The position numbers and the translations under genes were made by a program. The notes beneath the pieces were generated by a model that saw only the letters and a program-made list of their open reading frames with translations, ran no database searches and had not been told where the DNA came from. Below are positions 3,972-52,518 of a stretch of 52,856 nucleotides of DNA, one piece after another (the stretch's first letter is position 1; every line of letters starts with the position of its first letter). The DNA lies in the NCBI GenBank assembly GCA_017553625.1, contig JAFZKP010000011.1, positions 1-52,856 on the forward strand. Reading direction: 5' to 3'. This DNA is from Bacteroidales bacterium. GTDB lineage: Bacteria > Bacteroidota > Bacteroidia > Bacteroidales > F082.

Positions 3972-4032
3972 TGTAAAATAAACTGTGTGGTTTCTGTTTT
4001 TATTGCAGCCTGACACAGTTTAATTTACACTA
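3969..4032. terminator. Bidirectional terminator / 20-bp inverted repeat
   Basis: Arms 3969-3988 and 4013-4032 are complementary over 20 bp with one mismatch, separated by 24 nt. They lie between two convergent genes and the left arm begins at the stop codon of the ATPase. Probably a shared terminator. Confidence 0.65.
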
Positions 4033-4046
4033 TCCTAATAATTGTA

Positions 4047-4292
4047 TCATAATACATTCGCAATTATGTATATTACCAACAAAACAATCGCTATTAAGAA
4101 TAACTTTTTGAAAAAGCGCCCGACCCTTTGTTTGAAGCTTAAATTGTCTTCAGCTTTTTCTTCATCTGTTAGATTATTCTCACCTTCTATTGCACATCTC
4201 TTGCAACAATAATACCTCGTGTTCCATATTGGACCGCGTTTGTGACCTTTTTCAGCAGAAAAGTTTTTTCCACACCATTCGCATTTTACCAT
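4047..4292 (-). CDS. Small zinc-ribbon membrane protein
   Basis: 81 residues. Two CxxC pairs (CEWC near residues 4-7 and CKRC near 30-33, with a further Cys just before) form a likely zinc ribbon. The C-terminal 20 residues (LFLIAIVLLVIYIIANVL) are a single membrane helix, with a basic stretch RFFKKLF before it that favours a cytoplasmic zinc ribbon. It lies 53 bp downstream of two DUF4230 genes on the same strand, so all three may form one operon. I do not recognise a named family. Confidence 0.7.
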   Translation of the reverse strand: MVKCEWCGKNFSAEKGHKRGPIWNTRYYCCKRCAIEGENNLTDEEKAEDNLSFKQRVGRFFKKLFLIAIVLLVIYIIANVL

Positions 4293-4345
4293 ACCTATTA
4301 ATCTTTATAAAACTATTATTTTAAGATTTTCGGAATACTTCTTGA

Positions 4346-5101
4346 TTATTCTTTTATTGTAATGTTTATCGTATTATATCCGAAAACGGCAAAAAGACTC
4401 TTCAAACGTTTCTGGCCGTTTGTTTCAGCCCTTTTCAACAATCCACATTCCAATGCGTCTTGTTCAAGTTGTTGTTTTGCACGTGCTTTTAACGTTTTAG
4501 TGTTCTCATGACTCCATGTGCCAGATTCATATTCTGTTGTGAAATCGGACGGATTCATAATGACATCAAACAATTCAGCTTTTGGCAAATTAATGTCAAT
4601 AGTGTCGCCATGAACATAGATGTCGTTTTCTTTAACTTTTTTGAGGTCAAAACCGGCTCTGACACGGCCTTTGCCTATAAGAACAATCTCATTCTCTGTT
4701 GTGTTGTATCCTCCCCAAATGGATTTGCCTGTTGTATCAATACGTTTATCCATTATTGCCAACTCCTCGTAGTAGCATATCGTAGTGAATTCACCTATTT
4801 TCTTAATTTTGTCAACCACATTTGCCGTATCAGCGATGGTAAGCGGTCTGCGTGTGAATATTTTAGGAGCTACAAATACGAATGCGCCAGCCAACACCAC
4901 TCCTAAAATGATATATATCACATAAGGCAAAATTGCTTTTGTTGCAGCACCTGCGGCTGCCTTGCCAGCGGCAGCGCCAACACTTTCGCCACTCGTTTTG
5001 ATTTTATCAACAACTTTATCGGTAATTTTTTCACCTACATTAGCGATATTGGACGTATTCCCTTCAATTTCATTCTGATTAATGTTATTATTCTCTTTCA
5101 T
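4346..5101 (-). CDS. DUF4230 membrane protein
   Basis: 251 residues. The first 55 residues are polar and Ala/Gly-rich, followed by a membrane helix (about 58-80, ILPYVIYIILGVVLAGAFVF). A DUF4230 domain then covers the rest and probably faces the periplasm; it contains the family-type stretches GKGRVRAGFDL and INLPKAEL. Function is unknown. The adjacent upstream gene encodes a lipoprotein with the same domain, so this looks like a paired membrane-anchored and lipid-anchored set. Spacing to that gene is 5 bp, indicating an operon. Confidence 0.82.
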   Translation of the reverse strand: MKENNNINQNEIEGNTSNIANVGEKITDKVVDKIKTSGESVGAAAGKAAAGAATKAILPYVIYIILGVVLAGAFVFVAPKIFTRRPLTIADTANVVDKIKKIGEFTTICYYEELAIMDKRIDTTGKSIWGGYNTTENEIVLIGKGRVRAGFDLKKVKENDIYVHGDTIDINLPKAELFDVIMNPSDFTTEYESGTWSHENTKTLKARAKQQLEQDALECGLLKRAETNGQKRLKSLFAVFGYNTINITIKE

Positions 5102-5106
5102 GGCTA

Positions 5107-5673
5107 TTAGTTATTTTGTCCAAACATTATATTAATTTTTTCGAAACCCATTTGCGAAAGCATCGCGGTGAAAATCTCTGTGACGTTCTTTTCGGCATCT
5201 TCAAGAATTCCAAGATTTGGCACATCTTCACGAATGTTATTCTCTCCCAACTGGAGAATCTGATTTTGTTCATCAGCGCTGAAACGGCTTCTGAAGAATC
5301 CATAGTTTTCAAATACAGTATGTGTTTCGTCAGCAGGCATATTAAATGACAGCAGTTTTGCATGCGGCAATGTTACGGTTACATTTTTGCCATCAATATT
5401 TACGTTTTCTGCTGAAAAACCTTCAAGATTGACACCAGCTTTCAAATAAGCTGTTGTACTGAATAAAATTTTACGATTTCCGATGCTGTACCACTGGTCA
5501 TCATCCGTTTTTACGATTTTTTTGACAGTGTATTCCACTGTTCCTAATTCAGCAGATTCAGCCATTGTCTGAACACGTTCTTCGATTTGTTTTTCAGGTG
5601 AGCTCGAACAACCCACAAGCAATTGTGCGATTAAAAGCATACACAAGCTTTTCAGTAGTTTAAATTTTCTCAT
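5107..5673 (-). CDS. DUF4230 lipoprotein
   Basis: 188 residues from the ATG at 5673. A longer in-frame extension upstream is rejected because the N-terminus at this ATG is a clean lipoprotein signal, MRKFKLLKSLCMLLIAQL followed by the lipobox VGCSS. The mature protein is a DUF4230 domain (GVNLEGFSAENVNIDG, VTLPHAKLLSF). It is upstream of, and probably cotranscribed with, the membrane-anchored DUF4230 gene. Its promoter (5716-5724) lies in a 79-bp element that recurs upstream of the gene at 38505. Function unknown. Confidence 0.82.
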   Translation of the reverse strand: MRKFKLLKSLCMLLIAQLLVGCSSSPEKQIEERVQTMAESAELGTVEYTVKKIVKTDDDQWYSIGNRKILFSTTAYLKAGVNLEGFSAENVNIDGKNVTVTLPHAKLLSFNMPADETHTVFENYGFFRSRFSADEQNQILQLGENNIREDVPNLGILEDAEKNVTEIFTAMLSQMGFEKINIMFGQNN

Positions 5674-5714
5674 AGTTTTATTATTTAAAGTCGTTTTATA
5701 ATCGTTTTCTCCTC

Positions 5715-5793
5715 TGCAAATTTCCGCCTTTTTCCCACTCCTCCGAAGTCCTTGCTGGTCCTTTTGAGTCCGATTTGTCGAAGCATAAAAAAA
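5715..5793 (-). promoter_or_regulatory. Recurrent promoter element with GGAC direct repeats (copy 1)
   Basis: Read on the minus strand this contains 10-bp direct repeats (GGACTCAAAA, GGACCAGCAA, GGAC) abutting a TTCG -33 box, then 19 bp, then a -7-like GAAATTTGC (5716-5724). It is a near copy of 38369-38449, and the same repeat-plus-promoter layout recurs upstream of the genes starting at 32749 and 31290. It is the likely regulated promoter of the DUF4230 lipoprotein gene. Confidence 0.7.
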
Positions 5794-5935
5794 CCGCGAA
5801 CTTCTTTTGCGCAAGTTCGAGGTCGTAGGATTACCTTTAGCACGCCAACAAGAAAGCTCACGGTAATTACCGCGAGCGTCCTCTGCTTTCTGAGCGTGCT
5901 GTTTGAAATTTCCTACGTTTCGAACTTGCCTCTGA
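5787..5935 (-). ncRNA. Candidate structured RNA with competing terminator (6S-like hairpin or attenuator leader)
   Basis: On the minus strand, 5920-5927 pairs with 5813-5820 (AAGTTCGA/TCGAACTT), 5911-5917 with 5824-5830 (CGTAGGA/TCCTACG), 5894-5900 with 5839-5845 and 5885-5891 with 5851-5857. The apical hairpin is GCTCGCGGTAATTACCGTGAGC in two pieces around a perfect 12-bp palindrome (5861-5872). A central bubble of 10 and 8 nt separates the two halves. A pair that would be A/C on the plus strand is G-U on the minus strand, which supports minus-strand transcription. The 3' arm 5813-5819 can instead pair with 5797-5803, making a hairpin followed by seven U (5787-5793). The long hairpin with a central bubble resembles 6S RNA; no -7 box was found upstream, so identity is uncertain. 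Confidence 0.65.
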
Positions 5936-6031
5936 AAAGCGAAAACGCCTTTTTAATATGTCTTTATACTTTATTTAACTGTCTGTTTCTTAATATGTTT
6001 GTTTAATTTTTTATTTTAATCATTGCGTAAA

Positions 6032-28417: not shown

Positions 28418-30274
<1,857 letters not shown>

Positions 30275-30705: not shown

Positions 30706-30733
30706 GTAGAGACGCGCCATGGCACGTCTCTAC
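30706..30733. terminator. Palindromic repeat (GTAGAGACG type) between convergent genes
   Basis: 28-bp imperfect palindrome GTAGAGACGCGCCATGG and its complement, between convergent genes. On the minus strand its edge supplies the TAG stop (30730-30732) of the gene at 30730-31290. Probably a bidirectional terminator. Confidence 0.7.
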
Positions 30734-31290
30734 AAAACAATTTCCACCAATCCGTCCTTATTTCCTACAACAAACGCCACAGGCGGATTGTTGTCTTGCA
30801 CCAAATCATTTATATAAAGCGGTTCGCCAAGGATGAAGAGACTGCAGCTGAATGTATTTCCTACTTTAAGCTTGGAGTTTTCTGATTTTTCAACGATAAA
30901 TCTAGAGTCACCTAAATATCGGAAAGTGCAGCGGCGGTTGGGTTTCCACGACACAGAGACATGGTCGCCTACAGCTAAATCCTCAACTTTCAGATGTTGC
31001 GATTTCACATAGTCGGAACCGCTGTCTTGACCGATGTTTGCAAGGAAATCATCCCAGTCGTTGAAACCGAGGAACTTTGAGAGGATGTTGAGCGTGCAGT
31101 TGCGTGTGGTGTCGGCACCATCGATGTAGCCCCAGAGACGTTTTAGCGTGGTCGGACTCATGGTTTCGTGCGTACGCTCCCAGATGGCGCCGCTCAAAAA
31201 GATGAAATCGGCTGGAGTTTTCATCTTGCGCTTCACATCGTCCTCGATGCGCTTGCGGAGCTCTAATATTTCAGGGCTTGTCTTCTGCAT
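30730..31290 (-). CDS. Uncharacterised protein with an HTH-like N-terminal segment
   Basis: 186 residues, cytosolic. The first 85 residues are helical and contain LSGAIWERTHETMSPTTLKRLWGYIDG, a pattern found at the N-terminus of many uncharacterised Bacteroidetes proteins and resembling a helix-turn-helix; the rest is beta-rich (LAVGDHVSVSWKPNRRCTFRYLG). It may be a small regulator. It is divergent from the Ser/Thr kinase gene, and the intergenic region holds the GGAC direct-repeat promoter oriented toward this gene. Its stop codon belongs to a palindromic repeat. No firm function. Confidence 0.65.
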   Translation of the reverse strand: MQKTSPEILELRKRIEDDVKRKMKTPADFIFLSGAIWERTHETMSPTTLKRLWGYIDGADTTRNCTLNILSKFLGFNDWDDFLANIGQDSGSDYVKSQHLKVEDLAVGDHVSVSWKPNRRCTFRYLGDSRFIVEKSENSKLKVGNTFSCSLFILGEPLYINDLVQDNNPPVAFVVGNKDGLVEIVL

Positions 31291-31308
31291 AACATTATGT
31301 TTTGAATT

Positions 31309-31354
31309 GCAAAATTGCGAAAATTTTCAAATAAATGACAATCCTTCTTGGTCC
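31309..31354 (-). promoter_or_regulatory. GGAC-repeat promoter for the gene at 31290 (copy 3)
   Basis: Read on the minus strand: GGACCAAGAAGG (31343-31354), a -33-like ATTG, 21 bp, then CAATTTTGC (31309-31317). Same layout as the elements at 5715-5793, 32654-32702 and 38369-38449. Confidence 0.55.
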
Positions 31355-31381
31355 TTTTTTTGAAAAGTCGGAAATAAGTTT

Positions 31382-31390
31382 TAATTTTGC
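31382..31390 (+). promoter_or_regulatory. Promoter -7 element for the Ser/Thr kinase
   Basis: TAATTTTGC with a TTTG -33 box about 20 bp upstream (end near 31362), 14 bp before the ATG at 31405. Confidence 0.7.
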
Positions 31391-31404
31391 AGAAAATTAG
31401 CATC

Positions 31405-32655
31405 ATGAACGACGACAGCACATCTGGCATCATCAATGGACAGTTTTTGTCGGAAGACGATACAAAATCGGTTTACGAAACTGTTTCATGCCGTGGTTTT
31501 AACCAGTTGATGAAGGTGAAACGGCAAGGCAGGTGGTTTGTGCTCAAAGGATTAGCTGTTGAATATCGGAACCAAGCAGTTTATCTCGAACTTCTGAAAA
31601 AAGAATATGATTTGATGGTTCAACTTGACCATCCGAACATAGCGAAGGCATTTGCAAAAGAGATGAACCCTGAACTTGGTCCCTGCATCGTGATGGAGTA
31701 CATCGATGGCGTTACTTTGGACGTGTTTCTTGCCTCGAAACCGTCTGTCGCCGCAAGAAAAAAGGTCGTTGAACAGCTTGTTGACGCGCTTGAATATATC
31801 CACAGCAAGCAAATCATTCATCGCGATCTGAAGCCGAGTAATATCTTGATTACCCGAAATGGTAACAATGTGAAAATAATCGATTTCGGTCTTTCTGATG
31901 CTGATGACTACGCCATCTTGAAGCAACCGGCTGGCTCCATGAAATACGCATCTCCAGAGCAATTACAGCCAGGCGTGAAACTCGATTCGAGAGCCGATAT
32001 TTACGCTTTCGGTTTGATTTTGAGAGATATTTTCCCACATCGTTATTGCCATATTGCAAAGAAATGTTCTCAAAAAGACAGAGAAAAACGTTTTGCTAAT
32101 ATTGAGGCGGTAAATAAAGCTTTTTTGAGAAGAAAGGCTTGTTGGTTCGCTACGGCTATGATTATGGTTTTGGCAATAGCTTTGATGCCTGTTATGATAT
32201 TTAAGCCTGTTGCCGACCAGATTCAGGAGAAGGAAAAATCCGAAAATGAACATCGAAGACAAATCGAGGCTTTTGTGAACGAGGCTGAGAATTATATGAC
32301 GGCATATTGGAAGCCGTTGGTGGAAGAGGCCAGTCAAGGCAAAGAGTACATTGAAATAATGGTATTAAAGATAAACTATTACGACAATTATATAACTCTT
32401 AATGAAATGATTGAGCGCTACGGCTTTGTTCATAACGACAAGACGGAAGCCGAGGACATATTCGGACAGATGTATTACACATGGTGCACAAAAGCTACAA
32501 ATGCAATAAAAAACTGCAGGTCATATCTGACCGAATACGACCAAGGGCTGCTAACTGAAAGGGAAAGAGACAGCATCAGGGATGTGGTGCAAAAGTACAT
32601 TGACATTTCCAACCAGAAACAGGAAGAATATCAGCAATTATTGATGAAGCAATAA
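31405..32655 (+). CDS. Membrane-anchored Hanks-type Ser/Thr protein kinase
   Basis: 416 residues from the ATG at 31405. The kinase domain (about 25-240) has the ATP-binding Lys48, catalytic HRDLKPSN (Asp141, Asn146), DFG (160-162) and SPEQ in place of APE. The glycine-rich loop lacks GxGxxG (CRGFNQLMKV), so ATP binding may be atypical. A membrane helix (about 246-266) is followed by a 150-residue helical domain expected outside the cytoplasm, a candidate sensor. Downstream secreted proteins may be its partners. Confidence 0.85.
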   Translation: MNDDSTSGIINGQFLSEDDTKSVYETVSCRGFNQLMKVKRQGRWFVLKGLAVEYRNQAVYLELLKKEYDLMVQLDHPNIAKAFAKEMNPELGPCIVMEYIDGVTLDVFLASKPSVAARKKVVEQLVDALEYIHSKQIIHRDLKPSNILITRNGNNVKIIDFGLSDADDYAILKQPAGSMKYASPEQLQPGVKLDSRADIYAFGLILRDIFPHRYCHIAKKCSQKDREKRFANIEAVNKAFLRRKACWFATAMIMVLAIALMPVMIFKPVADQIQEKEKSENEHRRQIEAFVNEAENYMTAYWKPLVEEASQGKEYIEIMVLKINYYDNYITLNEMIERYGFVHNDKTEAEDIFGQMYYTWCTKATNAIKNCRSYLTEYDQGLLTERERDSIRDVVQKYIDISNQKQEEYQQLLMKQ

Positions 32656-38504: not shown

Positions 38505-38873
38505 ATGGGACTTCTTAACAACTTAAAAGACAGATTCAACAAAGCTGAATTTACTGTAGCACCTAACAAAAAACTTAAAACTATTTCTAAAGAATTTATG
38601 GAGGCTTTCGACCTTCAACTTGTATTCTACAAAGGCTCTGTGATTGCTGATGGCGATTTGACACTAGCAGCTCTCAATAAAAAAACTACAAAAGATGTAA
38701 ATGCTAAAGCCGACGGCATTAACATTAAAGGCAACACTAAAGTTGGCGATGCCGAAAAGATGTTTGACGCCAATTTCGGAGTAACTGTCCAAATTAAGGA
38801 CAAGAAAGGCGAGAAATGTGTGCCGAATGGAATTACCATCGGACAGGCAGCCCGTGGAGAGTATGAAAAGTAA
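38505..38873 (+). CDS. Duplicated-motif protein A (first gene of the novel operon)
   Basis: 122 residues, cytosolic, no signal or membrane segment. Two copies of a motif of about 45 residues: the first about 20-60 (KLKTISKEFMEAFDLQLVFY then ADGDLTLAAL), the second about 73-115 (GNTKVGDAEKMFDANFGVTV then NGITIG). The same motif forms the proteins at 38898 (N-terminal half) and 40548; this is the most divergent of the three. An N-terminal extension MGLLNNLKDRFNKAEF is unique to it. The family is unknown to me. Next gene is 24 bp away. Confidence 0.75.
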   Translation: MGLLNNLKDRFNKAEFTVAPNKKLKTISKEFMEAFDLQLVFYKGSVIADGDLTLAALNKKTTKDVNAKADGINIKGNTKVGDAEKMFDANFGVTVQIKDKKGEKCVPNGITIGQAARGEYEK

Positions 38874-38897
38874 AAACCAACCTTAAAACTAACAACT

Positions 38898-39572
38898 ATG
38901 GCATCATTTAAGATAACTGGCCAGATGAAGGTCAAGACGCTAAAGGAACAATTCATGAACAACTTCGGCACAGTTCTCCGGGTATATTACCACCATCGTT
39001 TTGCCGATGACAATGTCACTTTGGCTTCCATCCGTGGCGAAGGCGCGGTTGGTGGCGAACTGGACTGCGGCGAAAACGACATCGTGGGCGATTTTGAGGA
39101 ATTCATGATGGAATTGTACGGCATCGAGGTGCAAGTGGCTTCGCCCGACGATTCATATCTTGTGAACAACAGCCTTCGCCTTGGAGAAGTGAAAAATGTC
39201 GCAAAAGCAATTTCGGAAAACGGAAAGCAAGGCAAGAGCAAGTTTGTGTTCAATGGACAGGAATATGCCCTGAAAGGTCGTCTCGTTCACGCAGTTGTAA
39301 AGCATTTCATTGAAGAAAACCCAAATGTTACGATTGAAACATTGGATAAGACTTTCAACGTGACATCACGGAAGTTCGTTACGACACCTGTTATCGCGAT
39401 GACCACAACTGATAGCAGTGGTAAAGCTGGAGGAAATTATTACATGAATCCAGAAGATTTCATTTCTATTATTAATAATCAAATAGTGGTTTGGAATTAT
39501 TGGCCGATGAAATACTTCTCGGTGTTCATGGATACGGTGAAAAAGATTGGCTATTCGGTAGAAGAGGTATAA
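38898..39572 (+). CDS. Duplicated-motif protein B fused to the KAP-associated C-terminal domain
   Basis: 224 residues. Residues 1-100 are the duplicated motif (KVKTLKEQFMNNFGTVLRVY then DDNVTLASIR; second copy about 57-98). Residues about 121-224 are a separate domain shared with the C-terminus of the KAP NTPase at 41191: KGRLVHAVVKHFIEENP, TTTDSSGKAGG, IVVWNYWP and FMDTVKKIGY. That domain resembles one often found at the C-terminus of Bacteroidetes restriction- and defence-related proteins, but I cannot name it. The fusion links the motif family and the NTPase. Confidence 0.78.
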   Translation: MASFKITGQMKVKTLKEQFMNNFGTVLRVYYHHRFADDNVTLASIRGEGAVGGELDCGENDIVGDFEEFMMELYGIEVQVASPDDSYLVNNSLRLGEVKNVAKAISENGKQGKSKFVFNGQEYALKGRLVHAVVKHFIEENPNVTIETLDKTFNVTSRKFVTTPVIAMTTTDSSGKAGGNYYMNPEDFISIINNQIVVWNYWPMKYFSVFMDTVKKIGYSVEEV

Positions 39573-39592
39573 TTATTTAAAATTCAATCTAA

Positions 39593-40486
39593 ATGGAAAA
39601 CAAAGAATTAAAAATCACTTTTCAGCAACTATTGTCCATTGAAAGTCCTGATTCTAAAGTTATTAAATCAGGAAAGATACTATTTTGCAAACTAATGACG
39701 ATGGATGTCGATTTGCCAAAACTATTGACTTCTGGGCGTGACAAGATGCTCGCATATGTCAATAATTGGCGTAACAAATGGGATAAGGCAATCAATATGA
39801 TGAAAGACAATCCCAAGGTGGAATACATTATGTTTTTCATTCAGGACAACGAAACGCGAGAGTCGCGATTTGCGCTTACTGTCAAAGTGAAAGGTGTTAT
39901 CAGCCATTCTAAAATTAAGGATGCCGATAAAAACAGAACATATTTTGATTTTGAATTGGTTGACGATTTCCTAAATCTGGAAGGTCGAGCAGTCATCAAT
40001 TGGGTGGGACAAGCCCCTATGCAATATTGGTACAACAATGGTGACCCGACGCGAGGCATCAATCCAAAACAATTGGTGAAGATTGACGAACTGCCCTGCC
40101 AAACATCATTCATTACCTACGAAGAAGTCGTTTTAAACTTTCTGGATTTACAATACATCTTCAAAACAGAAGACAAAGATTGGAAAGAGAAGTTACAGGC
40201 TGTTAACTGTGTGTATGCCATTGTTGAAAAGGAAACAGGTAACACATACATCGGTGTCACCTATAATAATGATGGTATTTGGGGCAGATGGAAAGACTAT
40301 GCCGAAACAGGACATGGTGGTGATGTTGAACTGAAAAAGTACATCAAAAAAATCGAAGACGCTCACCGTTTTCAATGGACTATACTCGAAACATTACCAA
40401 AAGGCGTTTCTAATGTAACCGCCATTGCAAGAGAAAATCTGTACAAAGAAAAACTATGTAGCAGAGCTATGTTGAATAAAAACTAA
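39593..40486 (+). CDS. GIY-YIG nuclease-domain protein
   Basis: 297 residues. Residues 1-195 are an uncharacterised domain. The C-terminal 95 residues form a GIY-YIG domain: Tyr208 in CVYAI, YIG at 219-221, Arg232 in WGRW, Glu281 in ARENLYKEKL and an Asn close to the C-terminus, the expected catalytic set. Such domains cut DNA or RNA in homing, repair and restriction enzymes. The N-terminal region may provide target recognition. It is 20 bp after protein B and 61 bp before protein C, hence in the same operon. Confidence 0.82.
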   Translation: MENKELKITFQQLLSIESPDSKVIKSGKILFCKLMTMDVDLPKLLTSGRDKMLAYVNNWRNKWDKAINMMKDNPKVEYIMFFIQDNETRESRFALTVKVKGVISHSKIKDADKNRTYFDFELVDDFLNLEGRAVINWVGQAPMQYWYNNGDPTRGINPKQLVKIDELPCQTSFITYEEVVLNFLDLQYIFKTEDKDWKEKLQAVNCVYAIVEKETGNTYIGVTYNNDGIWGRWKDYAETGHGGDVELKKYIKKIEDAHRFQWTILETLPKGVSNVTAIARENLYKEKLCSRAMLNKN

Positions 40487-40547
40487 ATAAGGAGCATCGC
40501 CGAAAATCCTTTAAAGAGTAGGCAAAAACATTTAATAACTAATTATT

Positions 40548-40850
40548 ATGGCAGATTTCAGTATTGATGGCCGCATGAAGGTCAAGACTTTGAAGAAGCA
40601 GTTCAAAGAAGCTTTTGGCGCAACTTTGAGAGTTTACAAAGGACAAGGTTTTGCTGATGAAGATGCAACATTGGCATCAATCCGCGCTGAAGGCGCAAAA
40701 GGTGGCGAAGTTAAAGTCGTCGGCAACATGAAAGTCGGAAACTTTGAAGACAAAATCAAGGAAGTCTTCGGTATCAAGGTTCAGGTCGCTACAAAAGACG
40801 ATTCAGCCCTCGCTGACAACGGAATCACTTTAAGTGCTGCCGGTAAGTAA
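40548..40850 (+). CDS. Duplicated-motif protein C (stand-alone)
   Basis: 100 residues, just the two motif copies: residues 6-45 (GRMKVKTLKKQFKEAFGATL, FADEDATLASI) and 58-97 (GNMKVGNFEDKIKEVFGIKV, ADNGITLSAA). The internal repeat is clearest here, with G-x-MKV, F, FG, AD and TL in matching places. Predicted beta-alpha-beta-beta units; small, soluble. It is about half identical to the N-terminus of protein B. Function unknown. A short hairpin with T run follows at 40858-40890, which might reduce transcription of later genes. Confidence 0.77.
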   Translation: MADFSIDGRMKVKTLKKQFKEAFGATLRVYKGQGFADEDATLASIRAEGAKGGEVKVVGNMKVGNFEDKIKEVFGIKVQVATKDDSALADNGITLSAAGK

Positions 40851-40857
40851 ATGTTTT

Positions 40858-40890
40858 TAAGGAGAAGGCTCTCGGGTCTTCTCCTTTTTA
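40858..40890 (+). terminator. Possible weak internal terminator in the operon
   Basis: AAGGAGAAG and CTTCTCCTT pair around GCTCTCGGGT and are followed by TTTATAAAA. It lies between protein C and the gene at 40913 and could set the ratio of upstream to downstream gene expression. Confidence 0.6.
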
Positions 40891-40912
40891 TAAAACTTCA
40901 AAATTAATAATC

Positions 40913-41170
40913 ATGAGCGTAGAATATTATAAGAAAAAACTGATAGACCTCAGGTCTGACCTCGCTAAAGAAAAAGAGGCCAAGAAAAGAGACAACGAGC
41001 GTTATGCCGGTTACATCAAAAGCGCATCAACACCATCGTCAAAGGCAAGCTATCGCAAACAGAAAGTAGATCATGCTGCAAGTCACGACCGCCACATTGA
41101 AAGCATAAAACGTGACATTGAAAGAGCCAAAGAGAGTTTGGCGAGCGAAAGAAGAAGAGCAAAGAAATAA
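40913..41170 (+). CDS. Small basic coiled-coil protein
   Basis: 85 residues, rich in Lys, Arg, Glu and Ser. Two helical heptad stretches (EYYKKKLIDLRSDLAKEKEA and HIESIKRDIERAKESLASER) are linked by a polar segment, suggesting a helical hairpin. No Cys, no membrane segment. It resembles short uncharacterised coiled-coil proteins found next to unknown operons in Bacteroidetes. The KAP NTPase follows 20 bp downstream, so it may be an adaptor. Not recognised further. Confidence 0.7.
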   Translation: MSVEYYKKKLIDLRSDLAKEKEAKKRDNERYAGYIKSASTPSSKASYRKQKVDHAASHDRHIESIKRDIERAKESLASERRRAKK

Positions 41171-41190
41171 TAATATTTAAAGATTATTCC

Positions 41191-42909
41191 ATGATATCAA
41201 GCATTATCGATGTGCCTCGAAAGCACGACCAGGAAGACTTATTCGGCATCAAAGTTTATCAGGATGCATTAATAAAATATATACAATTAACTGATACACC
41301 AATCACCATTGCTTTGCAGGGCGAATGGGGAAGTGGCAAGACATCTCTCATGAATCTCCTGCGCTGGAATTTATGCGAAGTGGATGATGCTTTATACTAT
41401 CCGGTTTGGATAAACACATGGCAGTATTCTTTGATGAAAACTCCACAACAGGCCATTATAAGCATACTTGAAGGTATTGTAAACCAAATAGGTGCGCTAA
41501 ATCCAAGTGCCAAATGGAGTGAAAGTAAGAAGAAGATTGGTGGCATCTTTAAAAAAATGGCAACCGTTGGCGCGAAAATGGCAGCAGGTGCAGTGGGTAT
41601 TGATGGCGGTGTTGTTGATGATTTCGTCGGGAACGGACAATCTCAATCAGATATAAACCAACTGAAAGAAGAAATCGGAAAGTTGATCAACGAGGCACTC
41701 TCTGATGACTCTTCAAAAATCGGATTCACGTTTTATATCGACGATCTTGACCGAATAGACCCACCAGTGGCTGTGGAAATCCTTGAATTGCTTAAGAATA
41801 TTTTCGACTTAGAACATTGTGTTTTTATTCTTGCCATTGATTATGACGTGGTTATAAAAGGATTGAAACCAAAATTTGGCGAGCTTACAGAAAAAAACGA
41901 ACGCGAATTCCGCTCGTTTTTTGACAAGATTATACAACTGCCGTTTTCCATGCCCGTAGCTTCTTACAATGTCGATACTTTTTTAGTTGATGCTTTACGT
42001 AAAATAGAGTTTTTTACAGCTGAAGAATTGACAAACCATCAATTGGCAGAAACGCTTTCCGAGGTTGCTCGCCTTTCTGTTGGCAGCAATCCAAGATCTC
42101 TAAAACGCCTGACCAATACATTATCTCTTATCTCGATCATAAATGCGGAAAGAAGTTCGGAATCAGATGGTGTTGACATTCGTAGTAAAACACTTAACTT
42201 CTCGTTGGTATGTATGCAAATAGCTTATCCATACATTTACAATCAATTAACAGAAGAACCTGATTTTAAAAATTGGAATGAACGCATAGCATCGAAACTG
42301 AAATTACGTCATCTGACAGCTGAGGAAAAGGAAAGTCTTGATGCAACTGAAGAATTTGATGAGGATTGGGAGAAAGTGGTTTTTCGTATGTGTCAGAAGG
42401 AAATGTATCTTAGCAATAGGGCTTTTCAAGTGTCACAGCTTCTTACAAAAATATCTGAAATTGTAAATGACGATAATCATTTGGGAGAATTTGTCGATGC
42501 TACTATTGCGTTGTCGGCGGTTACAAACCTCAAAGCTTTTGATGGTCCAATTGTTCTTAAAAAATCAAGAGCCTTGGAAGTTAATAAATTTGATGGAAAA
42601 GAGATTAAAGGTAAGGGGCGTCTTTGCCTTGAAATTGTAAAAAAGTACGTTGATGAACATCCGGAAGTGACTTTAGCTGAACTAAAATCTGTTTTCAATG
42701 TCCCTAAATGTGATGCTGTAGTTGAATCATTGGAAAAGGCAATGACAATGACGGACAGCTCTGGTAAGGCAGGAGGTTGCCATTACATCAAAGAAAACGA
42801 CCAAATAATAATTAAAGAAGGTAAAATCGTTGTTTGGAGTTATTGGCCGGAACGCTACTATGCTCCTTTCATGGATAATGTTAAAAAATTAGGAATAAAA
42901 TTAGGATGA
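41191..42909 (+). CDS. KAP-family P-loop NTPase with shared C-terminal domain
   Basis: 572 residues. KAP domain with Walker A GEWGSGKTS (44-52) and Walker B FYIDDLDRIDP (about 181-191), followed by the KAP-typical region VFILAIDYDVVIKGL and SNPRSLKRLTN. No clear membrane helix interrupts the domain, unlike many KAP proteins; an Ala/Gly-rich segment (about 123-140) is the only candidate. Residues about 470-572 are the domain also found at the C-terminus of protein B. KAP NTPases occur in phage-defence systems. A small membrane protein overlaps the stop by 4 bp and may supply the membrane anchor. Confidence 0.85.
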   Translation: MISSIIDVPRKHDQEDLFGIKVYQDALIKYIQLTDTPITIALQGEWGSGKTSLMNLLRWNLCEVDDALYYPVWINTWQYSLMKTPQQAIISILEGIVNQIGALNPSAKWSESKKKIGGIFKKMATVGAKMAAGAVGIDGGVVDDFVGNGQSQSDINQLKEEIGKLINEALSDDSSKIGFTFYIDDLDRIDPPVAVEILELLKNIFDLEHCVFILAIDYDVVIKGLKPKFGELTEKNEREFRSFFDKIIQLPFSMPVASYNVDTFLVDALRKIEFFTAEELTNHQLAETLSEVARLSVGSNPRSLKRLTNTLSLISIINAERSSESDGVDIRSKTLNFSLVCMQIAYPYIYNQLTEEPDFKNWNERIASKLKLRHLTAEEKESLDATEEFDEDWEKVVFRMCQKEMYLSNRAFQVSQLLTKISEIVNDDNHLGEFVDATIALSAVTNLKAFDGPIVLKKSRALEVNKFDGKEIKGKGRLCLEIVKKYVDEHPEVTLAELKSVFNVPKCDAVVESLEKAMTMTDSSGKAGGCHYIKENDQIIIKEGKIVVWSYWPERYYAPFMDNVKKLGIKLG

Positions 42910-43220
42910 TACTGCTGTTATTATTAAGATGGGTTTATAATTTAGTTGCTCCTATTATATTTATTGTAGGAATGTTGGTTTTATGTGATGGAGAGTATAT
43001 TGGAGATAACGATATTTTAATCGGGTCATTATTGGCAATTCCCGGGTTTTTATTCGGCTTATTTACTGCAGGGCTTGATATTGCGCCTAAACTGCTTTGG
43101 ATAAAATCGGCCTTATTTATATTTCAAACACGAGTTTGGAATGCAATTGAAGGAGCGTTGGTATTCTTCTTAACACCATGTTTTATCACAGGTGTAGAAG
43201 CGTTTATTGATGCACTTTAA
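42906..43220 (+). CDS. Small polytopic membrane protein
   Basis: 104 residues, mostly hydrophobic, with about three membrane helices (1-25, 38-58 and 80-100). Its ATG overlaps the KAP stop (ATGA), so the two are translationally coupled, which favours a physical partnership. No family recognised. A membrane effector or anchor is a reasonable guess because many KAP NTPases carry their own membrane helices and this one does not. Confidence 0.75.
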   Translation: MILLLLLRWVYNLVAPIIFIVGMLVLCDGEYIGDNDILIGSLLAIPGFLFGLFTAGLDIAPKLLWIKSALFIFQTRVWNAIEGALVFFLTPCFITGVEAFIDAL

Positions 43221-43248
43221 AATAAGTTTTAATTAAAATAATTAAGTT

Positions 43249-43554
43249 ATGGATCAACAAAGAGTATTAAAAATTGACAACGGTAGATTAAAGCTCTGTT
43301 CCATAAATGGAACTTTAATTCGTAATATTGCCAACCTTGGCGTTGTATATGCCGATTTAAAAGACAACTTAATTGTAGTAACATATTCAACAGGCAAAGT
43401 TGAAGTATGGAAAGATTCAGGTGTATTATATCGCAATATTATCCCCAAAGATGCACTTCAAGCACGTTGGAGCGGCGACTATATCGCTGTTATGAAGAAT
43501 AATGGACGAACAGAATTGTGGACCACTAATGCTGCTTTTTATAGGGCAATTTAA
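43249..43554 (+). CDS. Mini beta-propeller-like repeat protein
   Basis: 101 residues. Three repeats of about 30-37 residues: GRLKLCSINGTLIRNI, GKVEVWKDSGVLYRNI and GRTELWTTNAAFYRAI, separated by strands such as DNLIVVTYSTG and GDYIAVMKNNG. This looks like blades of a WD-type propeller, but three are too few for a closed ring, so it may oligomerise. No signal peptide. It lies 28 bp after the membrane protein and 39 bp before the next gene. Function unknown. Confidence 0.7.
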   Translation: MDQQRVLKIDNGRLKLCSINGTLIRNIANLGVVYADLKDNLIVVTYSTGKVEVWKDSGVLYRNIIPKDALQARWSGDYIAVMKNNGRTELWTTNAAFYRAI

Positions 43555-43593
43555 GAGTGTAATCAAAATTGATTCGGGTGGTAGTGTTTTAAT

Positions 43594-44517
43594 ATGGAAA
43601 AACTCACGAAACATCAGCAAGACGGCATCGCCGAAATGATGCATCACATCCGCAACAAAGAAGTTGTCCAATACATTTTGGAAACGCTTGGAGAAAAGAA
43701 TTGGAGTAGAGGCATTCTTTCCAATAGTTTATCATATCTTACTGAATATCAAGAAGATATATTTGAATCACTGGGCGGAAATTATTCTAGCGAAGAACTT
43801 GACGAAGAGTGGGATAATGACGGCATCAACAGTGAAATAGCCAAAATATTGAAAAAGCAGGGTGTAACTCATTATCTGTATGAAAACGAGGATTATCTGA
43901 ATGAGATTCGTGAAGGTAAGATTATATGCGAAGGAATTGATGTGGAAGATATTAAAGACATGATAGCTGTTGGAGAAGAGGAAGAAACGGAAGATGATCA
44001 TGAAGAGTTATGTCAAGTAAAAGAAGTGGAGTTTCGATATAAAAGCAATATTCTTAAAGGTAAATTCTGTTGGGCAGATGGCGCTGTTTCATGGCATCTG
44101 CAAATTCCTGAAGGTGTTTTGTTTTATCCTATCATGTGGAGAGACCCGGATTTTACCGATGAAGAAGCTGAATCTATGGCAAAAAAGGGCTTAAAAAACC
44201 TTTGGTGGTTGTACAATGAAATACTAACGCATAAAGACGAAATACTGAAAGTTCTTCCTCCATGTATAAAAATGGAACGGGAAATAAAAGCAATACAGCA
44301 AAAAATTCACGAACTGAAGAAATCACATGAAGAAGGTGTGATAAGTAAGAACGATTATCGAGAGGCGTTAAGATCTCTTGCAGAACAACGTAGTACTATT
44401 GATATGAACCTAATAGAGCTTTTTGGTGATACTATGCGCAAAATAATACAAGTTGATACGACATATTTTGATAGTAATAAGGAAATGATTTACAAAATTA
44501 TAGGTATTAACGTATGA
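43594..44517 (+). CDS. Uncharacterised acidic protein ending the operon
   Basis: 307 residues, acidic, no signal or membrane segment. The N-terminal part is helical, the middle (about 150-215) beta-containing with several Trp (KGKFCWADGAVSWHLQIPEG), and about 225-275 form a coiled coil (EREIKAIQQKIHELKKSHEEG). No catalytic motif is apparent. It is the last gene in the close same-strand series that starts at 38505; the following 293 bp hold no clear gene. Confidence 0.68.
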   Translation: MEKLTKHQQDGIAEMMHHIRNKEVVQYILETLGEKNWSRGILSNSLSYLTEYQEDIFESLGGNYSSEELDEEWDNDGINSEIAKILKKQGVTHYLYENEDYLNEIREGKIICEGIDVEDIKDMIAVGEEEETEDDHEELCQVKEVEFRYKSNILKGKFCWADGAVSWHLQIPEGVLFYPIMWRDPDFTDEEAESMAKKGLKNLWWLYNEILTHKDEILKVLPPCIKMEREIKAIQQKIHELKKSHEEGVISKNDYREALRSLAEQRSTIDMNLIELFGDTMRKIIQVDTTYFDSNKEMIYKIIGINV

Positions 44518-48243: not shown

Positions 48244-49974
48244 ATGAAAAGAGCAATATTATTACTGGCAATTATTCCGTTTTTGCTGATTACCTGCAAA
48301 AAGGAGCCTGATATCAAGACCGTTTTTGAAATAGAATCGGAAGTTGTGGAATATTATACTACATCGGCGGAGATAACTGTGCGTTATTCTTATAATGCCG
48401 ACCTTAAATATATCAAGGCTTATATTTGCGAAAGCATTGAAATGACTGCCCCGCAGATTTCCACTGCAGAACTAAACGGCAAAGTTTTCGTGGTAAAATT
48501 CACTGATTTAACAGCAAATACCAAGTATTATTATCAATATGAGTATTCCAACGGCACTGATGTAAACAAAACAGAGGTTAAAAGCTTCAGGACAAAAGAC
48601 TACAGCCAACCGACAGTGGAAACGATAGAGGTCTTTGACATCACTTCCTCGTCAGTAAAATGCAATGTTGAAGTAAAAGATGATGGCGGCTCGGCAATCA
48701 CAGAACGCGGAGTGTGCTGGTCATCACACCAAACCCCAACCGTAAATGACGCTCATGTTACAAGTGTCGGCAACACGGGGCATTTCACCTGTGAGATAAC
48801 CAATTTGGATGAGGTTACAACATATTATGTCAGAGCTTATGCCACTAATGATTATGGTATTTGTTATGGCGATCAGATAACATTTACAACTGAACACAAT
48901 ATCGTGCTCCCGACTGTTTCTACCAATGGTGTTATGTTCAAAGACACATATGCTGTCGCCACAGGAACAATAGTTTCTGATGGATATGGCACTATAAGTG
49001 TTAAAGGTGTTTGTTGGAGCCAATCAGACAATCCCACTATCGACAATGCTCACACAACGATAGACAATGGCGATGTTGGTCCATATCAGAGTGAGATTGC
49101 AAATTTGTTGCCAAGCACCACATACTATATTCGCGCTTACGTTACAAATGAAGCGGGAACCGGATATGGCGAGCAGCGCGAGTTCACAACCTTCAGCTAT
49201 ATTCCCGAAGGTGCATTGACAGGAATATTCACAGCATGTGACAAACAAATTGTTTTCTCACAAGGCAATCTTCAATATCAAGCGTCATCAAACACCTGGC
49301 GTTTTGCTGAAAAACAATATGATTATATCGGCGAGCCCAACAAGTATATATCATCATATTATAATGGTTGGATTGATTTGTTCGGATGGGGTACAAGCGG
49401 CTATGAACATGGAGCAGTGTGTTATCAACCATGGAGTATTAGCACAAGCAGCGGCGATTATTGGGCTTATGGACAAAGTGAAAATAACTTGTACGACCAG
49501 ACTGGCAAGGCTGATTGGGGTTACAATCCGATTTCAAATGGAGGGAATTCCGAGAATCTTTGGCGCACTCTGACTAAAGACGAATGGGATTATATTCTTA
49601 ACATAAGATATGTGGAATCAGGCATCAGATTTGCAAAGGCAAAAGTAAATAATATCAATGGCTTGATTCTATTGCCTGATAATTGGAGTGCTTCAATCTA
49701 TGACTTGCAAAATGTAAATGACACTGAGGCAAATTATGATAGCAACACAATCGACCTTGCGTCATGGAATTATACGTTTGAGGTCAATGGCGCTGTTTTT
49801 CTTCCATTAGCAGGATATCGCAATTACGGAGCTTCTTATAATTCTAATAACTGTTGCTATTGGACTTCATCCTCTTATAATTCAAATGTTTACTGTATAA
49901 GCACCAAAGGTGTGTTATCCAATGGGGCCTACCGTTATAGTGGGTATTCAGTGCGTCTGGTCCGAAATAAGTAG
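48244..49974 (+). CDS. Surface lipoprotein with fibronectin-III-like repeats and a FISUMP-type C-terminal domain
   Basis: 576 residues. Lipoprotein signal MKRAILLLAIIPFLLITCKK. Three fibronectin-III-like repeats (about 25-120, 122-220 and 222-320) carry the recurrent GVCWS, TTYYVRAYATN and YGDQITFTT patterns. The C-terminal domain (about 325-576) has FSQGNLQYQASSNTWRFAEK, WRTLTKDEWDYIL and YWTSSSYNS, ending VRLVRNK, typical of Bacteroidetes major paralogous (FISUMP-like) surface domains of unknown function. Exposed on the cell surface and probably recognises a ligand. The TAG stop is the first part of a palindromic repeat. Confidence 0.8.
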   Translation: MKRAILLLAIIPFLLITCKKEPDIKTVFEIESEVVEYYTTSAEITVRYSYNADLKYIKAYICESIEMTAPQISTAELNGKVFVVKFTDLTANTKYYYQYEYSNGTDVNKTEVKSFRTKDYSQPTVETIEVFDITSSSVKCNVEVKDDGGSAITERGVCWSSHQTPTVNDAHVTSVGNTGHFTCEITNLDEVTTYYVRAYATNDYGICYGDQITFTTEHNIVLPTVSTNGVMFKDTYAVATGTIVSDGYGTISVKGVCWSQSDNPTIDNAHTTIDNGDVGPYQSEIANLLPSTTYYIRAYVTNEAGTGYGEQREFTTFSYIPEGALTGIFTACDKQIVFSQGNLQYQASSNTWRFAEKQYDYIGEPNKYISSYYNGWIDLFGWGTSGYEHGAVCYQPWSISTSSGDYWAYGQSENNLYDQTGKADWGYNPISNGGNSENLWRTLTKDEWDYILNIRYVESGIRFAKAKVNNINGLILLPDNWSASIYDLQNVNDTEANYDSNTIDLASWNYTFEVNGAVFLPLAGYRNYGASYNSNNCCYWTSSSYNSNVYCISTKGVLSNGAYRYSGYSVRLVRNK

Positions 49975-50052: not shown

Positions 50053-50595
50053 TTACGCCTTTTTCACGTTGTCTTTACCAACCTTAACTGCTTCCATGTT
50101 CAACGGAATCAGCTTGTGAGCACGCTCCGGCAAGCTGTGGCGAAGACCCTCTTCAACATTCTTGTCGTCGATGATTGGACGAAGCTTCAAGAATGCGCCG
50201 AGGATAATCATGTTGAACACTTTGCTGTTACCCATGTCTGATGCCAACTGTGCACCTTCGATGGTGTAGATGTTGATGTCCTTACGGGTAGGCTTCTTTG
50301 TGATGCCGTTCGGATCATAGAGAAGATATCCGCCAGGTTTTACTTTCGATTCGAACTTGTCGAGTGACTGCTGGTTCAAAATCACTGCTGTGTCGAATGC
50401 GTTGATGATAGGAGAGCACACGCGTTCATCGCTGACGATGACAGTCACGTTGGCGGTACCACCACGCATCTCAGGACCGTATGATGGCATCCAGCTCACT
50501 TCTTTGCCTTCCATGATGCCGCTATATGCAAGGATCTTACCCATTGATAAGACACCCTGTCCGCCGAATCCGGCAATAATAATTTCTTCTGTCAT
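50053..50595 (-). CDS. korC: 2-oxoacid:ferredoxin oxidoreductase, gamma subunit
   Basis: 180 residues, gamma domain of the four-subunit oxidoreductase. Begins MTEEIIIAGFGGQGVLSMGKILAYSG with the glycine-rich GFGGQG loop, then PSYGPEMRGGTANVTV, typical for this subunit. It is the last gene of an operon in the order delta-alpha-beta-gamma, 17 bp after the beta gene. The complex oxidatively decarboxylates 2-oxoglutarate or branched-chain 2-oxoacids to acyl-CoA with reduction of ferredoxin, or runs in reverse. Confidence 0.92.
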   Translation of the reverse strand: MTEEIIIAGFGGQGVLSMGKILAYSGIMEGKEVSWMPSYGPEMRGGTANVTVIVSDERVCSPIINAFDTAVILNQQSLDKFESKVKPGGYLLYDPNGITKKPTRKDINIYTIEGAQLASDMGNSKVFNMIILGAFLKLRPIIDDKNVEEGLRHSLPERAHKLIPLNMEAVKVGKDNVKKA

Positions 50596-50612
50596 TGCTT
50601 TAATTTTTTAAA

Positions 50613-51428
50613 TTATTTTTCAACGAGCTTTCCATCGACTTTGATATCGCCAAGCGGATATTCAGGAAGCATGTTCTCAACCAACCATTTGTTAGCTGCG
50701 ACTGGTTCCATCTTCCAGTTGGAGTTGCAGTTCGATACGATTTCGACGAAGTTGACGCCGCTCTTTCCGTTAATCTGATTTTCAAAAGCCTTCTTGATAG
50801 CTTTCTTGGCGTTACGTACGTGTGCAGGATCATAAACAGCCTGACGTGTCACGTATTTTGTGCCAGGAAGACGTGCGATCAGTTCGGTGATGTGGAGTGG
50901 ATAACCGTTGTTCGGGATACCGTCGAAGCCAGCGCCTGCAGGTAATGTAGCCTTACGTCCGTAAGGTGTTGTTGCAGTCTTCATGCCTTCGAGTGTGGTA
51001 GGTGCCATCTGGCCGCCTGTCATACCATAGATACCGTTGTTCACGAAGATCATGGTGATGTTCTCGCCACGGTTGCATGTGTGGATTGTCTCGCAAGTAC
51101 CGATAGCTGCCAAGTCACCGTCGCCCTGATAGGAGAACACGACTTTGTCAGGCCATACACGTTTGATACCTGTCGCGACCGCCGGTGCGCGGCCGTGTGC
51201 TGCCTCGGCGAAGTCAACGTCGAAGTAGTCGTATGCCATAACGGCGCAACCTACTGGAGAAACGCCGATGGTTTTGTCGCCAACGCCAAGTTCTTCAAGA
51301 ACTTCAGCGATGATACGGTGGACAGTGCCGTGACCGCAGCCTGGGCAATAGTGGAAAGGCTTGTTGGTCAATAACTTAGATTTCTGATATACTAAGTTTT
51401 CAGGTTTGATAATATCTTGTACTGTCAT
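50613..51428 (-). CDS. korB: 2-oxoacid:ferredoxin oxidoreductase, beta (TPP-binding) subunit
   Basis: 271 residues. Thiamine-diphosphate-binding subunit: CPGCGHGTVHRII near the N-terminus and the TPP/Mg motif GDGDLAAIGTCETIHTC followed by NNGIYGMTGGQMAPTT. The N-terminal Cys pair may bind an iron-sulfur cluster. Positioned 4 bp after the alpha gene. Together with the neighbours it produces reduced ferredoxin for anaerobic metabolism or amino-acid biosynthesis. Confidence 0.93.
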   Translation of the reverse strand: MTVQDIIKPENLVYQKSKLLTNKPFHYCPGCGHGTVHRIIAEVLEELGVGDKTIGVSPVGCAVMAYDYFDVDFAEAAHGRAPAVATGIKRVWPDKVVFSYQGDGDLAAIGTCETIHTCNRGENITMIFVNNGIYGMTGGQMAPTTLEGMKTATTPYGRKATLPAGAGFDGIPNNGYPLHITELIARLPGTKYVTRQAVYDPAHVRNAKKAIKKAFENQINGKSGVNFVEIVSNCNSNWKMEPVAANKWLVENMLPEYPLGDIKVDGKLVEK

Positions 51429-51432
51429 TTTC

Positions 51433-52518
51433 TTATTCTCCTATAATTTGTTTCTTCATAGCTTCGAGAACTTCCTCTGGTGTGTGGATGATACCACCGA
51501 CGCGGCCGAAGTGCTCAGCCTTGACACGACCGTTGCAAGCCAAACGAACGTCTTCGATCATCTGACCGCAGCTTAACTCTACTGATAAGAATCCCTTGAC
51601 GCCTTTCTTGATGAGAGCGTCGATAGCCTTTGTTGGGTAAGGCCAGAGGGTGATAGGACGGAGCAAACCGACTTTCAATCCTGCCTCGCGGCCAAGCTGC
51701 ACTGACTTCTGAGCGATACGTGCGCTTGAGCCGTAAGCTACGAATACGTATTCTGCATCGTCGCAGTTGATCATTTCGTAACGGACTTCTTTCTCTTCTA
51801 TCTCTTTGTATTTCTTCTGGAGATGGATGTTGTGCTCTTCCATCTTTGCTGAGTCGAGGTCCAAAGAGGTGATGATGCGGTGTTGTGTGCCGTTCTTGCG
51901 GCCGTTGATAGCCCAAGGATATTTAGCCTTGATTTCCTCGTCGGTCATACGTGGCTTCTGATCCGGAAGGACGACCTTCTCCATCATCTGGCCGATAGCA
52001 CCGTCAGAGAGGATACATGCTGCCATACGATATTTGAATGCCAAGTCGAAGCCGAGTGCCACGAAGTCGCACATCTCCTGCACTGATGCCGGAGCGAGTA
52101 CGAGGTTACGGTAGTCACCATTGCCACCGCCTTTGGTGTTCTGGAAATAGTCGGCCTGTGATGGCTGGATTGTACCAAGACCCGGGCCGCCGCGGACGAC
52201 GTCAGCGAAGACGCAAGGAATCTCAGCGCCTGCGATGTATGCCAGACCTTCCTGTTTCAAGCACACTCCAGGGCTTGATGATGAGGTCATGACGCGCTTG
52301 CCTGATGCGCCAGCTCCGTAAACCATGTTGATGGCTGCCAATTCACTTTCAGCTTGAAGAACGACCATACCGGTACGTTCATAAGGGTTCTGTTCCGACA
52401 GATACTCGATCACCTCTGACTGAGGGGTGATAGGATATCCGAAATAAGCATCAGCGCCGTAGCGGATGGCGGCTTCTGCCAATGCTTCGTTACCCTTCAT
52501 CAGTTTTAATTCTCCCAT
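51433..52518 (-). CDS. vorB: 2-oxoacid:ferredoxin oxidoreductase, alpha subunit (VorB/KorA type)
   Basis: 361 residues. Begins with MGELKLMKGNEALAEAAIRY and GYPITPQSEVIEYLSE, the pyrimidine-binding start of the alpha subunit, with VMTSSSSPGVCLKQEGLAYI and the C-terminal GLLRPITLWPYP. The annotation commonly given to this Bacteroidetes subunit is VorB (3-methyl-2-oxobutanoate), while 2-oxoglutarate is equally possible from sequence. It lies 35 bp after the ferredoxin-like subunit. Confidence 0.9.
   Translation of the reverse strand: MGELKLMKGNEALAEAAIRYGADAYFGYPITPQSEVIEYLSEQNPYERTGMVVLQAESELAAINMVYGAGASGKRVMTSSSSPGVCLKQEGLAYIAGAEIPCVFADVVRGGPGLGTIQPSQADYFQNTKGGGNGDYRNLVLAPASVQEMCDFVALGFDLAFKYRMAACILSDGAIGQMMEKVVLPDQKPRMTDEEIKAKYPWAINGRKNGTQHRIITSLDLDSAKMEEHNIHLQKKYKEIEEKEVRYEMINCDDAEYVFVAYGSSARIAQKSVQLGREAGLKVGLLRPITLWPYPTKAIDALIKKGVKGFLSVELSCGQMIEDVRLACNGRVKAEHFGRVGGIIHTPEEVLEAMKKQIIGE

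Follow-up and report, generated by a model that had tools for sequence, protein, structure and literature searches.

We find that nine consecutive genes at positions 38505-44517 of a Bacteroidales contig (JAFZKP010000011.1, assembly GCA_017553625.1), analysed over a stretch of 52,856 nucleotides (hereafter the window), can be read as one assortment of a modular and probably horizontally exchanged conflict system of Bacteroidota with a proposed membrane-effector mechanism, a reading to which we assign a probability of about 0.45. Comparison with related loci brings out a frequent set consisting of the duplicated-module genes D and A, gene E and a position held by either a KAP-family NTPase or an ion channel, sometimes with the small membrane gene G directly behind; a kinase and a divergent gene, REG, are often linked to this set. 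The same comparison reveals exchangeable tails common to the KAP body, D-module proteins, OmpA-type proteins, LRR proteins and nucleases, together with varied nuclease cassettes and changing content at one chromosomal site. The island looks like an undescribed defence or stress system, a stress response being the main rival explanation, and we recognised no paper describing the gene set in the open-licence PMC literature.

The nine open reading frames (ORFs), here named A to I, all lie on the plus strand with intergenic gaps of 20-62 bp and a single 4-bp overlap (F/G), just as originally predicted. That prediction, made from the window alone, held further that the nine genes act together. Co-occurrence across the genus indicates that D, E and F belong together, but, with C, H and I being optional, we reject a nine-gene unit. 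What recurs regularly is D/A, E and the KAP-or-channel slot and, more loosely, the kinase and the divergent gene, both of which lie outside 38505-44517. The linkage of these last two genes (30730-32655), an end domain common to F and B, and a hairpin behind D are features that the original prediction did not contain.

Core genes and their co-occurrence

A profile built from D (40548..40850, +; 100 amino acids (aa)) and the N-terminal modules of B was scanned against 84,980 species genomes, giving 394 pattern-matching stretches, 179 of which encode a relative. The best 80 of these 179 stretches, with up to 10 kb on each side, were combined with the window and one additional locus (L032) into a set of 82 loci. 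All of them contain D by design, contig ends truncate many, and some are close kin (L045 and L046 are nearly identical). Gene labels derive from our own ORF caller, clusters and profiles, and the figures given here are consequently counts of labels. Judged by their titles, the loci belong to Bacteroidota, mostly to rumen or gut metagenome genomes, with one named isolate, Flagellimonas marinaquae (L114).

Gene E (40913..41170, +), which encodes a charged protein of 85 aa that appears coiled-coil-like by eye, is labelled in 69 of the 82 loci. A voltage-gated-type ion channel (CHAN; Ion_trans 7.8e-17 in the single member tested) is labelled in 53, a KAP NTPase in 25, and one and/or the other in 69; further labels are REG (44 loci), the kinase KIN (41), OmpA-type proteins (45) and G (27). 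In the 36 loci with over 6 kb between the D genes and either end, E is found in 34 and CHAN or KAP in 33. Moreover, every scored partner gene shares the strand of D (307/307). KAP and channel partially exclude one another: 9 loci carry both, 16 only KAP, 44 only CHAN and 13 neither (p = 8e-4), the corresponding numbers for the 36 loci with 6 kb on both sides being 4, 7, 22 and 3 (p = 0.003). Among 28 G-labelled genes in other loci, 12 stand directly behind CHAN and 5 behind KAP; the window's own G (42906..43220, +), a small membrane protein by eye which overlaps F by 4 bp, was dropped by the ORF caller and hence falls outside the G-label counts.

A test of co-occurrence independent of the D-locus set drew on 99 genomes of the genus, in which D occurs in 23, E in 18 and a close KAP (at least 69% identity) in 10. 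All 18 carriers of E and all 10 carriers of a close KAP are D-positive (hypergeometric 1.3e-15 and 7e-8, with relatedness not corrected), and at the level of the order two further KAPs (76% identity) both sit inside D islands. Chance assembly is thereby rejected for D, E and F, on co-occurrence and strand, and may still hold for H and I. More distant KAPs, of 38-47% identity, occur in eight loci from seven genomes with no D within the fetched stretches, some of which are short; in one of these seven genomes (G094), another contig carries a D-type match. KAP matches of 26-29% are present in five genomes of the genus (G019, G023, G032, G105 and G111). In a phylum-wide sample, a D match was obtained in 8 of 345 genomes, comprising the window's own, one strong match (G678) and six weak ones.

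KIN (31387..32655, +) is a Ser/Thr protein kinase with a hydrophobic segment visible by eye; it matches Pfam Pkinase at 5.7e-33 and the PADLOC kinase models mad6 and PD-T4-6 in the kinase domain only. Beside it and divergent from it lies REG (30730..31290, -), a putative regulator of 186 aa for which no Pfam match was obtained at E<=0.05.

The KAP NTPase and its exchangeable tails

The prediction that F (41191..42909, +; 572 aa) is a KAP NTPase was borne out by a Pfam KAP match of 4.8e-35 (121.7 against a 20-bit cut-off). Its best PADLOC match is PifA (7e-31, residues 7-313 of F), and it resembles QatA over part of its length, scoring 79.3 against an NCBIfam cut-off of 600 bits. In an alignment of nine KAPs, the body is kept to about residue 453, after which the sequence changes abruptly, such that the KAP body carries one of at least five tails. 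Across 27 KAP ORFs we count 15 with the tail domain W, 2 with the tail NTK, 8 with other tails (T3, T4, T5 and that of L114) and 2 fragments. One locus (L040) has a second KAP gene split in two frames (ORFs 15 and 16), with a longer NTK-tailed KAP copy in the same locus.

Alignments and a structure model place the exchangeable C-terminal tail of F, a W domain, at 42556..42906 (+), and alignments indicate that B (38898..39572, +) ends in the same domain (39216-39569), which there follows a D-type module (residues 1-103). The model of W is confident (predicted local distance difference test (pLDDT) 91.6, predicted TM-score (pTM) 0.85), and a structure search of the PDB gave no useful match to its fold. 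We located W in 68 proteins from 55 loci. Of the 68, 45 are OmpA-labelled, and 3 of the 45 combine W with a D module. W also forms the N-terminus of OmpA-type proteins, and the W of KAP tails is homologous to that of OmpA N-termini (score 72.8 against a shuffled maximum of 20.6, n=100); in one OmpA-type protein viewed by eye, W is followed by a hydrophobic segment and then by the OmpA domain. NTK, either alone or attached to OmpA-type, LRR, nuclease or KAP proteins, occurs in 33 proteins from 21 loci. Four of the KAP tails are found with a D module in one protein (W in 14 proteins, NTK in 2, T3 in 1 and T5 in 1). A 640-aa protein from another locus (L098:4608-6530) joins a T3-like domain, a D module and a C-terminal region like the window gene at 48244-49974.

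Duplicated modules and the hairpin after D

A duplicated motif had been claimed for three of the nine proteins, and profile-to-profile alignment of the two halves of D upholds it (score 48.3; the highest of 200 column shuffles reached 19.3 and the reversed control 13.8). One module is common to D, to A (38505..38873, +; 122 aa) and to the N-terminal half of B, and the A-type motif is present in 56 of the 82 loci. The AlphaFold2 model of D (pLDDT 88.3, pTM 0.74) shows a (beta-alpha-beta)x2 arrangement, and the top 22 Foldseek matches in the PDB are all tandem ubiquitin-like proteins, such as ISG15 and linear di-ubiquitin, none at E<0.001 and with TM-scores of 0.32-0.37 by query length. Unlike ubiquitin-like proteins, each D repeat spans only about 50 residues and D has no C-terminal Gly-Gly for conjugation, ending instead in ...SAAGK. 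At the sequence level, the D profile gave nothing better than E>0.4 against PDB sequences, and B gave no match. When the D model was compared with viral structures, the best hits (E 0.019, prob 0.97) included uncharacterised proteins of an Erwinia phage (Ea35-70), which might possibly be phage relatives or mimics of D.

The gap between D and E contains a terminator-like hairpin with a T tract (40860..40885, +; -15.5 kcal/mol). Such hairpins follow 33 of 83 D-type genes, that of the window included. They are scarcer behind A-type genes (5 of 76) and other island genes (9 of 197, 7 of the 9 belonging to the 66 E genes), and five mononucleotide shuffles yielded 0-3 per 83. The hairpin sequences differ among many loci. 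The associated p-value of 1e-12 overstates independence, as kindred loci have hairpins in common and no control for gap length was applied. The search used thresholds of our own, devised after the hairpin had been sighted by eye, and a general terminator scan had not listed the D hairpin. Most simply, these hairpins would mean that the cell makes more D than E or slot protein. A promoter scan found sigma-70-like sites not to be in excess (26 vs 24.0), using a model that need not fit Bacteroidota.

Accessory cassettes

Gene C (39593..40486, +; 297 aa) was predicted to be a GIY-YIG nuclease with its catalytic residues in place. The PADLOC UzuA model supports this strongly (2.5e-56 over residues 40-297 of 297), while the Pfam GIY-YIG match is sub-threshold (17.8 bits, cut-off 22.6); C carries Tyr, Tyr, Arg, Glu and Asn at what, judged by eye, we take to be GIY-YIG-like places. 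A GIY-YIG gene of the UzuA family is present in 8 of the 82 loci. A nuclease-type label in the broad sense, which includes families without a nuclease match (NUC11, c27 and c28), occurs in 60 loci, and PADLOC-named nuclease families (UzuA, PD-T4-3, mREase_II, PDC-S26) in 31. With one member tested per family, the nuclease cassettes are of UzuA, PD-T4-3, mREase_II, PDC-S26 and GmrSD type, with family GIY2 matching PD-T4-3, c24 matching mREase_II and c25 matching PDC-S26. For 62 unlabelled cassettes, single members match, among the matches listed, models of GmrSD, HEC-06, PtuA or mREase_II type, and one PtuA model fits two members.

The last two genes of the operon are rarer accessory cassettes. 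H (43249..43554, +; 101 aa), which had been described as a mini-propeller protein, gave no Pfam match above cut-off, so that this description is not confirmed, and its relatives occur in 2 of the 81 other loci. Partial relatives of I (43594..44517, +; 307 aa) are likewise found in 2 of 81, and among 149 genomes I is matched in its own genome and, partially, in one other. The expectation of conserved co-occurrence holds for E and the close KAP, which in the genus occur only in D-positive genomes, and is not supported for the GIY-YIG gene, H and I.

A variable chromosomal site

The window's island is bounded on one side by what we take to be an ABC-F gene (28418..30274, +) and a 137-aa gene, and on the other by a three-gene operon, presumably of oxidoreductases (50053..52518, -). 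Eight relatives keep both flanks, the ABC-F gene and a 361-aa gene being 94-100% identical, and D is absent from all eight. The site is empty in G052, where 65 bp separate the 137-aa gene from the operon (L144), and in G015, which has no gene between its flanks (L143). A single gene besides the 137-aa one is present in each of G137, G011 and G039. G046 and G032 carry the kinase together with nuclease-like, radical-SAM and G-like genes (G046 also REG), and G106 the kinase, a 96% identical YhcG, other genes and what is probably a W-tailed protein matching PDDEXK_4. A different D island occupies the same site in G043. This variability, and the nucleases of named defence families carried by other copies, are in line with the suggestion that the operon lies in a setting of the defence-island kind. 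Two loci (L146 and L147) present a minimal island without D that consists of a kinase, a nuclease-like gene, a radical-SAM/SPASM gene and a G-like membrane gene, with REG labelled in L147 only.

Comparison with known systems

Ten proteins of the window went through Pfam and PADLOC profile scans. One parallel in organisation is with the ternary conflict systems coupled by effector-associated domains (EADs), in which, according to Kaur et al. 2020 (PMC7159879), a domain of a core component recurs on neighbouring effector genes, likewise W in F and B, and some of which have OmpA-type peptidoglycan domains behind a transmembrane segment, as in D islands. The same authors interpret such domain sharing as homotypic coupling, and by analogy we infer that homotypic coupling through shared tails may operate in D islands. 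Unlike those systems, however, the NTPase is a KAP, the shared domains are different, D modules are added, and no MoxR, vWA or GTPase match to Pfam was found among the ten proteins.

PifA of the F plasmid is a KAP NTPase like F, but F matches only positions 8-315 of its 720-position profile and, unlike PifA, has an exchangeable tail and a surrounding operon. In qatABCD, as described in PMC13279940, QatA is a KAP ATPase with an extra C-terminal domain, again like F, yet no QatB, QatC or QatD match exists among the ten proteins. The similarity to Uzume lies in the UzuA-family match of C, UzuA being here an optional cassette. OmpA-domain membrane proteins recall Zorya in other island copies (one such protein from another locus has a weak ZorB match, 2.4e-5 over 37 residues), but none of the ten proteins matches a Zor model. 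Similarly, TerB-type genes occur in other copies and no Pfam Ter match in the ten window proteins.

Proposed mechanism and alternative explanations

Under the membrane-effector reading, infection or envelope damage would be perceived via OmpA, kinase, LRR or tail parts, and D modules, perhaps present in excess since transcription partly stops after D, would form a scaffold or restraint that binds the KAP and effectors through their tails. On a trigger, the slot protein (the KAP, as proposed for PifA, or the channel) would break the membrane barrier and an accessory nuclease, here UzuA-like, would cut nucleic acid, such that infection is stopped at the cell's cost. The partial mutual exclusion of a PifA-like NTPase and an ion channel suggests a membrane effector, as does the small membrane protein behind CHAN or KAP; OmpA-type proteins and the kinase are candidate inputs, and nucleases candidate additional outputs. 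Killing by PifA through membrane depolarization was suggested in earlier work, as cited in PMC8594841. A more elaborate version, which we consider unlikely as a whole, has D as an abundant ubiquitin-fold-like scaffold of an immune hub, into which tails plug effectors (nuclease, LRR, KAP) and a peptidoglycan-anchored sensor, with channel and KAP as interchangeable executioners that collapse the membrane potential under Ser/Thr kinase control, and with a species-specific connector code. The original prediction instead cast the NTPase as sensor and the nuclease as effector, roles that we do not favour: because the KAP tends not to co-occur with an ion channel, whose place it seems to take, a membrane effector is at least as likely.

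That same exclusion bears on a nucleic-acid-sensing alternative modelled on QatA, in which the KAP would oligomerise on foreign DNA read by its tail and recruit or license the GIY-YIG nuclease, the membrane protein being secondary. The partial resemblance of F to QatA would suit it, as would the occurrence of W on nuclease-like proteins outside D islands, and PMC13279940 reports that QatA binds DNA and appears heptameric or octameric. Since the KAP partly excludes a channel, W is the N-terminal domain of OmpA-type proteins, and the nuclease is optional, we nevertheless regard this alternative as quite improbable. The main rival is an envelope or chemical stress island of Ter-like character, not anti-viral, in which kinase and OmpA proteins would sense wall or ion stress, D, TerB and DUF4230-like proteins would form a scaffold, and a channel or KAP would adjust membrane flux. 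OmpA-type proteins are as frequent as noted above, and a TerB or DUF4230-like label occurs in 29 of the 82 loci, a part of these DUF4230-like only (Pfam TerB 1.2e-6 in the single TerB-type gene tested, from another locus). Additionally, several of the distant D relatives in other Bacteroidota (L154-L159) lie near what we take to be universal-stress-protein-like genes; within their 3.3-kb stretches no other island family was labelled. Against this stand the nuclease-type cassettes, in both the broad and the PADLOC-named counts, and the presence of D in 23 of 99 genomes with turnover at the site, which suit conflict systems better than housekeeping stress, leaving the stress explanation somewhat unlikely in our estimation. 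If the operon were unrelated cargo brought together by chance at a variable site, the rarity of H, I and the GIY-YIG gene would fit, but this is very improbable given the co-occurrence, the strand bias, the slot exclusion and the shared tails.

Several further observations weigh against the membrane-effector conflict system. Cassettes of pyroglutamyl-peptidase-like, lipoprotein-like, TerB and DUF4230-like type are not typical immune effectors. The KAPs of two D islands (L097 and L114) are only 48% and 38% identical to F, so that the close-KAP rule is not universal; because of these two loci and the G094 match, KAP identity does not split D and non-D groups cleanly. The island's G+C of 0.35-0.40 is not unique, window positions 3001-6000 having 0.38, and carriage by mobile elements was considered and set aside, as no D relative was found in plasmid records, phage records or viral contigs. 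Nor do we claim that a KAP tail is strictly matched to a cognate domain in its neighbours, as matching of tails and partners within loci does not discriminate. Recounted by eye, 10 of the 14 loci with a W tail (10 of 15 if L040, with its two KAPs, is included) have a second W protein, as do 6 of the 10 remaining KAP loci; for NTK, a partner is present in both NTK-tail loci (2 of 2, two cases only) and in 4 of the other 23. W is found on nuclease-like proteins in genomes without D, and may therefore bind DNA rather than partners; in one such genome (L129:2157-3943) a W-tailed protein adjoins an ORF that by eye is C5-DNA-methyltransferase-like, possibly a restriction-modification pair. Finally, PMC8594841 raises the possibility that PifA did not evolve for immunity, and PMC13279940 reports that some defence survives loss of QatA.

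If the membrane-effector reading holds, two unrelated membrane-linked proteins would be alternative outputs of one pathway, and, with a small set of tail domains as connectors, sequence alone would suffice to predict partners in new genomes. The channel in the same slot would also offer a natural comparison for how KAP NTPases such as PifA act. The findings point to a large gene system of Bacteroidota, known mainly from rumen and gut metagenome-assembled genomes, that we did not find named in the sources searched.

Other genes of the window

The YhcG, Fic and two DUF4143 positions of the window, in surroundings that had been described as rich in decayed toxin-antitoxin genes, have open ORFs. 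Approximately 33 kb from the island, two genes at 4346-5814 (-) resemble what we take to be a DUF4230-type pair, and a pair of this presumed type recurs as a cassette in 11 other D loci.

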